From assembly GCF_032854445.1 (NCBI RefSeq), contig NC_088305.1, forward strand, positions 27,242,628 through 27,306,627: 64,000 bases of DNA, read 5' to 3'. Within the stretch, counting starts at the first letter, position 1, and each line of letters starts with the position of its first letter. The notes beneath the pieces were generated by a model. That model saw only the letters and a program-made list of their open reading frames with translations, did not search any database and was not told the DNA's origin. Positions 49,475 to 51,596 of the stretch are shown here, in pieces. Origin of the DNA: Liolophura sinensis (lineage: Eukaryota > Mollusca > Polyplacophora > Chitonida > Chitonidae). The position numbers and the translations under genes were made by a program.

Positions 49475-49677
49475 ACAGTAGGACATACCGGTATCATAAC
49501 AGAACTAGGATTAATACCTCCCTGATACACCTATCATATATATATATATATATAAGGTGCAGGTGCTATATACGGGCACATGACATCTGTACTTCAGTTG
49601 GTACAGGTAACTGTGTTAGGGGTGTATCAGGGAGGTATTAATCCTATTTCTGTTATGATACCGGTATGTCCTACTGT
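49475..49677. repeat. 57-bp near-perfect inverted repeat
   Basis: Arms 49475-49531 and 49621-49677 are complementary at 56 of 57 positions (left end ACAGTAGGACATACCGGTAT). The 89-bp loop holds a TA run. In addition, GTGCAGGTGCTATATACGGG and the following 14 bases occur identically at 49557-49590 in the loop and at 49676-49709, right after the right arm. So a direct and an inverted repeat interlock. Confidence 0.93.
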
Positions 49678-49912
49678 GCAGGTGCTATATACGGGCACAT
49701 GACATCTGTCATATATGTGACCCCCCACCACCAAACCAGTCGGAAGTCGCCAGCCTGTATCTGTTAAGCCAATTAGAAAGCCGTTTTCAAACCCTTTGTA
49801 TCTGCACAAAGCTATGTTTGCCCTAGCAACTGCATAACAGCCGATCAGTGATTGGTCCAATTCTTCTGCGCAAGCGTAGTGAATGTTATGCCTTCGCTTC
49901 CGTTTTTCAAGC

Positions 49913-50062
49913 ATGGAGGCTGAAATCGCGAAACTTCTGAATTTGAATGCCCAAGATTCGTCGAATTTGGAGGATTTACTCGCTGAATACGTCTCAGAAG
50001 ATGGAAAAGACGATGCAGACGGTGACGGCTCTGATTCCGATACCACAGAGGATGAATTTTGA
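49913..50062 (+). pseudogene. Short acidic N-terminal frame inside the TIR element
   Basis: ATG at 49913 opens 49 codons starting MEAEIAKLLNLN and ending in a run of D, S, T and E, with TGA at 50060-50062. I recall that DUF7869-type proteins of invertebrates often begin with a similar short helical plus acidic stretch, so this may be the original N-terminus cut off from its C-terminal half. That link is inference. Confidence 0.4.
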
Positions 50063-50305
50063 TCCAACCGAGACCACTTACGAGTCGGTAATGAAAAGCG
50101 AGGCCGCCGAAGACTGTTTTCGATCATGCGGATAGCATTGATCAAGCTGAGTGGGGAAAAGCCACACAATTCAGGTAAGACAATCAGGTCATAGACGCCA
50201 AACCCCTCAATGAGTGATTTATGACTGACTGACAGCCGAGAGAAAGAATTTCGCGCGCCACCTGAGGGGCAATCAAAATGTAAACAAAGATCAGTTGACC
50301 GTTTC

Positions 50306-51010
50306 GTGTTGTGGTATTTTGCGTGGAGAGTGGCTGTCGGTCTGCACAAATCTGTTTCGCTGAATTTTCTCATCGCCGGACACACCAAATTTGCACCAGA
50401 CTGGTGTTTTGGTCTCTTGAAGAGGGCCTTCAAGCGCAATCTTGTACCAGCACAAAGTGTATTAGAAACTGTGGTGAATGAGAGCTCATCTGTCAACATT
50501 GCGCAGGTCGTTGGGTATGAAGATGGCACCACTGTCGTTCCAGTCAGTGATTGGCAGGCCTTCTTCAAGAATTCCTGTAAACCATTACACGGAATAAAGA
50601 AGTATCAGCACTTCAGATTTGATGATGCTCATCCTGGCTCTGTGTTCGTAAAGGAACACTCAGAATCTGCGGAAACAGAGTTCAACATCCTCATGTCAGA
50701 TTCAAGCTTCCCACGGGGTGCACTGGATGTGTTAGCTCCACCTGGTCTTCCACTTCAGAGGCAACAATACTTATATAAATCTATCCGAGAGTATGTTGAT
50801 GAGCCTTTTAAAGACACAGTTTGCCCTAAACCAGATGTATTGTCAAATGTAGAACAGGATGAAACTGTGATTATCACTGAAACAAGGAAGGCCAGCGATG
50901 GACATGAACGTGTGAAACGTGGTCGTGGCAAAGGAAGTCAGCGTGGTCAGACGGGTGTTGGGCGTGGCCATAGCCGTGGGCGTGGTCAGGGGGAGAACAA
51001 TGGTGTATAA
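50306..51010 (+). pseudogene. C-terminal part of a DUF7869-type protein
   Basis: The frame is open from about 50225, with no ATG before the conserved part. It encodes LWYFAWRVAVGLHKS, then the family hallmark AGHTKFAPDWCFGLLKRAF, then a VNESSSVNIAQVVG and EDGTTVVPVSDWQAFF segment, YQHFRFDDAHPGSVFVKE, and a basic Gly/Arg tail (RGRGKG...RGHSRGRGQG). This is the end of a longer protein family seen in corals and molluscs (DUF7869, from memory). In those proteins this part follows an HADNCGGQ-type motif that I read as part of an RNase-H-like transposase fold. That motif is absent here. The antisense 313-codon frame over the same DNA is not supported. Confidence 0.75.
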
Positions 51011-51508
51011 ACTCTTCAAATTCAATTTGAATCTTCAGTACAGTTAAAAACACACCTTGTGTCACACTTGTTTGATATATACTTAAGATGAGTGGACTGT
51101 GTCACAGTCACGCCAAAACGGGCAAAATGACTGATAACGGTGAACAAGGGTATAAACTTTAAAGTAAAAGCAAAATATGTTCCTGTTAGAGTTTGTGTTC
51201 AGATTTTGGTGGAAATATAGGCATATGTATGATAAATATGTGTAGTAAATTTCATCTTGATAACTTTAGTACAACAATGCGTTGCTAAGGACTCAATTTA
51301 TGGCATTTTAATGGGTTTTTTCTCCAGTTTCTTATTTTTGCGAGCGCGTAAATTCAGGGTTTTAAATTCACAATTACATGGCCAGTTTTTATCCAATGCC
51401 AACATATCATATATTTTTGAAAAGCTCATTCAATGCTCTTTCAGAAAAATATAATATCTCATATTTGAAAAATTCACCCATGTGACTGGTTTGGTGCTGG
51501 AAGGTCAC

Positions 51509-51510
<2 letters not shown>

Positions 51511-51596
<86 letters not shown>
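51511..51596. repeat. (TA)n microsatellite
   Basis: About 40 TA repeats immediately after the right end of the TIR element. Confidence 0.97.

Follow-up and report, generated by a model that had tools for sequence, protein, structure and literature searches.

Is a gene that encodes half of a protein with a domain of unknown function, and lies between inverted repeats, a gene of its host or what is left of a mobile element, and in the second case what moved it? The question is raised by a locus of Liolophura sinensis, found in a stretch of 64,000 nt (NC_088305.1, positions 27,242,628-27,306,627, assembly GCF_032854445.1) that we refer to as the window. The initial annotation, made from the letters alone, had proposed that a DUF7869-type gene in the window is a shortened transposon copy and that the DUF7869-type genes of invertebrates are transposon genes. 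We conclude that the window element very probably derives from a cut-and-paste DNA transposon by internal deletion and is non-autonomous, and that the DUF7869 protein is very probably the transposase of this transposon.

The element in the window and its copies

The element occupies positions 49716-51509 (Table 1). Of the 26 positions at its left end, 23 agree with the reverse complement of its right end, against at most 20 for any inverted 26-mer in 300 mononucleotide shuffles of both end regions, and the 261-aa frame enclosed by these ends matches the Pfam family DUF7869 (PF25273; E 1.5e-9, 38.2 bits, cut-off 26) over profile positions 74-186 of 192; both the inverted repeats and the C-terminal half of a DUF7869 protein between them are thus as originally described. 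The acidic N-terminal stub that was said to survive upstream does exist as a frame, which terminates at the stop codon 50060-50062, and its assignment to the transposase is a probable one. The element is directly flanked by TA on the left and TA on the right, a pair that by itself tells nothing, since the right flank consists of a TA microsatellite. On its left, the element is adjoined by a hairpin-like stretch (49479-49710) whose arms (49500-49531 and 49621-49652) are 97% complementary, with a GCAGGTGCTATATACGGGCACATGACATCTGT segment on either side of the second arm.

Table 1. Features of the window element, numbered from the first nucleotide of the window.
Feature	Position	Strand	Remark
Left target-duplication copy, 2 bp, TA	49714..49715	.	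Weak by itself in the TA-rich flank; backed by the 2-bp duplications of other copies
Left terminal inverted repeat, TGTGACC...	49716..49741	+	C9 copy has the same end
Site of about 320 bp extra in the C9 copy	49761..49765	.	Second deletion here or insertion in C9
Acidic N-terminal stub, ATG to stop	49913..50062	+	Probable remnant of the first coding exon; link to the transposase conjectural
Frame with DUF7869 C-terminal half and third conserved aspartate (GHTKFAPD)	50225..51010	+	
Internal-deletion junction at 3-bp microhomology ACC	50298..50300	.	Identical junction in the C9 copy
Right terminal inverted repeat, ...GGTCACA	51484..51509	-	Same end in the C9 and C4 copies
Right target-duplication copy, 2 bp, TA	51510..51511	.	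First bases of the TA microsatellite

Two further copies of this family, which we call family A, were found in the 609-Mb genome: one on contig C9, 98.9% identical, and a longer one on contig C4, whose match is split into three pieces of about 97-99% identity. The C4 copy has about 2.44 kb at a point, between element positions 583 and 585, where the window copy runs on without a break, and the window copy carries at its breakpoint the 3-bp microhomology ACC. This additional C4 DNA codes for a further part of the transposase, and within it lies the portion of a 456-aa frame that bears the first two conserved aspartates. The C9 copy, which sits at another site with a TT duplication of its own, agrees with the window copy in its deletion junction, to the base; since the junction is common to copies at different sites, the loss of the middle came before the movement of the deleted form, and duplication of a larger segment is unlikely for this pair because the flanks differ. 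The view of the window element as a copy shortened by internal deletion is therefore borne out. Near its left end the C9 copy is about 320 bp longer than the window copy. The C4 copy gave no match to the first 405 element positions, so its 5' end is missing, and it is interrupted at element position 1436-1437 by an insert of about 3 kb, with a 2-bp overlap at the bounds of the insert. Around it, at C4:7248600-7262200 (L015, L043), nested transposon remains are clustered, with frames that we take, by eye, to resemble pogo/Tigger and piggyBac transposases.

The initial annotation had proposed, as a check, a search for full-length copies of about 3-5 kb between the same termini. When each end was searched alone in the genome, two places matched the left end and three the right end, in a kind of search where, by the method's own caveat, an absent match does not prove absence; the termini of the window element were thus found at three places only, and no intact long family-A copy between them was found in our genome searches.

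Sister families, target duplications and empty sites

The genome holds at least 31 DUF7869 matches (60 candidates, all scored; the counts are lower bounds). Terminal inverted repeats together with a matching 2-bp duplication surround 22 of these 31, and also a copy on contig C35 that came from the family-C search and lies outside the 31. The nine matches without this full signature are L062, which has termini and no duplication, the C4 copies of families A and C, with one end only, four matches of family F, and L063 and L066, for which no termini were found.

Family B is the best preserved. Its nine complete copies, 99-100% identical, lie on seven contigs (C1, C2, C4, C5, C7, C8 with three, and C12), and two additional copies are interrupted; two family-B copies that we compared over their full length differ at 9 of 2899 positions. 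Of family C there are three complete copies, another that has an insert, one internally deleted and one truncated. In both families the main frame (451 aa in B, 476 aa in C) is preceded by another (152 and 203 aa, respectively), and from this arrangement we read upstream and main frames as probable exons of one gene. Positions 2354-2708 of the family-C element at L022 match C9, C5, C1, C7 and others at about 70-80%, mostly away from the listed DUF7869 matches; this stretch may be an upstream exon of further families.

Families B, C, D (L045) and E (L044) and loci L061, L064 and L065 have termini of their own. These differ between families, and in the non-window DUF7869 families they are mostly of the TGAAGAG type. 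In family E one end is CG instead of CA; the family was missed by a strict TG..CA scan, and its boundary was set by eye. The element at L064 (L064:1533-5610; C4:261200-267000) is a DUF7869 element in its own right, about 4.1 kb long, with termini matching at 22 of 22 positions, TGAAGGGCC, and an AT duplication. As to family F, an inverted pair on C28 and C10 was rejected as termini, since it is part of a repeat that recurs several times in the locus; no termini were recognisable in L046 and L047 (C28 and C10), the two copies examined of its four matches, and three of the four carry one internal TAG.

The duplications are of one length. Among 15 copies (nine of family B, five of family C and the C9 copy of A), a duplication of 2 bp fits all 15 and lengths of 3-8 bp fit none. 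With the window copy, D, E, the two interrupted B copies, L061, L064 and L065 added, the 23 copies have TA in 11, AT in 3, AA, CA, TG and TT in 2 each, and CT in 1, which leaves 12 of 23 with a sequence other than TA. For the empty sites, the joined flanks of six family-B copies, with one copy of the duplication kept, served as queries. At the C12 site, 40 of the 40 matches listed (the best 40 of 2098 candidates) span the junction at 98-100% identity; at one C8 site, in a second search of two sites, so do 40 of the 40 listed (the best 40 of 1617 candidates), at 94-98%. These junction matches are repeats without the element, and the empty sites are therefore paralogous, not allelic; they were found, among the matches listed, for two of the six copies searched, the repeats of these two sites taking up all the listed places. 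A fixed target duplication and empty sites, both of which the initial annotation had named as things to look for, are thus present, and its claim that DUF7869 genes are mobile finds support in several families of one genome, with termini, 2-bp duplications and paralogous empty sites. Its wider statement about invertebrates is backed here by one animal genome, and the relatives extend to bacteria.

Bacterial relatives and the putative catalytic core

When 84,980 genomes of prokaryote species were scanned with a profile, 35 stretches came up as candidates and nine of these proved to be relatives, an addition to what the initial annotation had proposed. The hosts are Thiomargarita (two), Desulfobacterales, Desulfocicer vacuolatum DSM 3385, Legionellales, two Deltaproteobacteria, Verrucomicrobia and Nitrospirales, several of which we take, judging by their names, to be sulfur bacteria. 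Each of the nine genomes has one match above cut-off, and in the phylum of Desulfocicer only its own genome matched among 395, which suggests that the family is rare in that phylum. Inverted repeats of 36-50 bp surround the gene in seven of the nine (L051-L054, L056, L057 and L059). These elements measure about 2.0-2.4 kb in six cases and 3.5 kb in L059, where about 1.4 kb lies outside the frame. Their frames are of 635-668 aa in six of the seven loci, uniting an N-terminal part with the DUF7869 domain, and of 310 aa in L057. With the boundary placed at TG and the duplications judged by eye, 2 bp fits three of the seven loci (L054, AT; L056, AA; L057, TT) and does not fit the other four.

All seven bacterial proteins scanned match DUF7869 above cut-off, and the window protein is 31% identical to that of L054 in alignment. 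In one of the seven, a further match, to DDE_Tnp_ISAZ013, stays below cut-off (14.5 bits against 26.9), and NCBIfam gave nothing near cut-off for any of them. Among the pattern matches in viral contigs none of 17 and none of 44 was a relative, and plasmids and phages gave no match to the L054 protein. Several of the bacterial records are metagenome assemblies. Beside the genes, eight of ten neighbouring frames scanned gave a match, with PqqD and, below its cut-off, HPr kinase (L057), GAF (L052), SLFN_AlbA_2 (L054), DnaJ (L056), DDE_3 (L051) and an integrase core in two frames (L053). It is PqqD and the 148-kb contig of the DSM 3385 strain that speak best for a bacterial setting, the other neighbours being less telling.

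Across 12 aligned proteins from animals and bacteria, aspartate 298 (numbered as in family B) never varies, and aspartates 168 and 255 are almost invariant; the window copy has neither of the latter two, and the degraded family-F copy L047 lacks the first of the three. The three lie in the motifs FD/WD, D-x-C-x-G-Q and GH-x5-D. Structure prediction was carried out on a bacterial relative, not on an animal protein: the full protein was modelled at mean pLDDT 70 and pTM 0.54, and its catalytic domain at mean pLDDT 79 and pTM 0.83. The main strands and helices of the domain model follow the order b-b-b-a-b-a-b, the topology of RNase H; of the three aspartates, one lies on the first strand, one directly behind the fourth and one behind the fifth. 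Foldseek found no match at E <= 0.001 in the PDB or in a viral library, the first PDB matches of the domain having E 0.0065 or weaker; the first ranks are NurA, Hermes, Argonaute, Mos1 and MutS for the domain model, and TnsB, Mos1 and Hermes are among the first for the full model. The five proteins ranked for the domain are mostly RNase H-like, and the ranks weakly support the RNase H fold class and membership in none of those families. Compared by sequence, solved structures gave one match, which at E 0.44 is not credible. From the conserved aspartates and the topology of the model, we read the DUF7869 domain as a probable DDD nuclease of the RNase H type. Of the RNase-H-like core that the initial annotation had proposed to look for, the topology and the three aspartates are seen in a bacterial model, and a fold match at E <= 0.001 is not.

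The tree, unrooted, was built from 162 columns and 15 rows, leaving out L058, the fragment L007 and loci L061-L066. A branch supported at 100/100 parts family A and eight bacterial rows from B, C, D, E and F; within the former side, A and seven bacterial rows are separated from L057 with a support of 94/93, which is below the program's starred level. In this tree, the family of the window groups with the bacterial relatives and apart from the other animal families. The root being absent, the tree gives neither the direction nor the number of transfers. We put forward tentatively, at somewhat less than even chances, that DUF7869 marks a superfamily of DDD transposons which make 2-bp duplications and have so far gone undescribed, that this superfamily extends over bacteria and animals and falls into two deep clades, and that the position of family A in an otherwise bacterial, IS-like clade points to transfer between bacteria and an animal lineage.

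Mechanism, alternatives and known systems

The observations behind our reading are the termini, the shared breakpoint, the 2-bp duplications, the near-identical complete copies of one sister family, the paralogous empty sites and the bacterial inverted repeats; catalysis, movement in trans and the role of the acidic stub are deductions. The DUF7869 protein would bind the termini and excise the element by means of its DDD site, and the excised ends would be joined to target strands cut with a 2-bp stagger, TA being preferred and not required. The window copy would have lost 2.44 kb through the 3-bp microhomology and then been moved by the protein of a longer copy; since it is without two of the three aspartates, its movement must, on this mechanism, have been in trans.

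Among the other explanations, the one that survives best is that these elements belong to a superfamily already known to make 2-bp duplications, for example Plavaka/CMCT or ISL2EU/PHIS, or to a Repbase family under another name, which we hold to be unlikely while granting it some weight. PlavakaA, in the portion of PMC12730594 that deals with it, has 2-bp duplications and TGT..ACA ends, and so resembles the window family in both; the sub-cut-off match of one bacterial protein to DDE_Tnp_ISAZ013 leans the same way. However, the signature given in the same portion for CMCT (CACTA, Mirage, Chapaev, Transib and Plavaka), namely C(2)C and H(3-4)H between the second and the last catalytic residue, was not seen by eye between the second and third aspartates, and no Pfam transposase model scored above cut-off in 16 proteins. 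Much less probable is that we are dealing with divergent members of IS630-Tc1-mariner, which duplicate TA. TA is indeed the commonest duplication here, the RNase H-type fold would be in common and Mos1 is among the fold matches, but TA accounts for only 11 of the 23 duplications and no Tc1/mariner Pfam model matched in the 16 proteins.

Marginally less probable again is that DUF7869 is a passenger gene in transposons moved by another transposase. The upstream frames of families B and C, which have no significant Pfam match, could be taken for such an enzyme, but they precede the DUF7869 frame in the same orientation, like an N-terminal exon; none of the nine scanned proteins matches another Pfam family above cut-off; a single frame holds the N-terminal part and DUF7869 in six of the seven bacterial inverted-repeat loci; and the three aspartates are placed where an RNase H transposase needs them. 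That DUF7869 is a host gene lying between chance inverted repeats, with the other copies as segmental duplicates, agrees with its annotation only as a domain of unknown function and is scarcely credible, given that the copies lie in different flanks with their own duplications, two of them with matching empty sites.

If the DUF7869 protein is the transposase, as we favour, a domain so far listed without a function would be recognised as a transposase family, and the DUF7869 gene models of invertebrates would be possible transposon genes. The near-identical complete copies of family B make the testing of transposition practical, and the bacterial relatives would offer a small one-frame system for the same enzyme, as well as a case for transposon exchange between bacteria and animals.

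How do these elements stand against known systems? (i) Pfam PF25273 is the same domain, matched above cut-off by all six animal main frames scanned; Pfam assigns it no function, and here it would be the catalytic domain of a transposase. (ii) The bacterial IS-like elements share the conserved aspartates and the inverted repeats with the animal families, and differ in having one long frame, a 2-bp duplication in only three of seven, and no NCBIfam name. (iii) For hAT, P, MuDR, Kolobok and Dada, the part of PMC10045372 that treats signatures gives C/DxxH between the second D and the last E; the conserved GH of DUF7869 has no C or D three residues before its H. (iv) piggyBac and Kolobok target TTAA, and the duplications found here are of 2 bp and of varied sequence. 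(v) For PHIS (Harbinger, ISL2EU and Spy), compared by Pfam only, no such model was among the matches of the 16 proteins. (vi) Among the open-licence papers listed by our searches, none describes a DUF7869 or PF25273 family in its title or in the opening of its abstract. (vii) IS481EU, which according to the section of PMC10045372 on it duplicates about 4, 15 or 25 bp, and ISL2EU are likewise eukaryotic transposon families close to a bacterial one, and their transposase family is different (PMC10045372, same section). Taken together, and judged by Pfam models and published signatures, the DUF7869 elements are most likely an unclassified lineage of DDD transposons.
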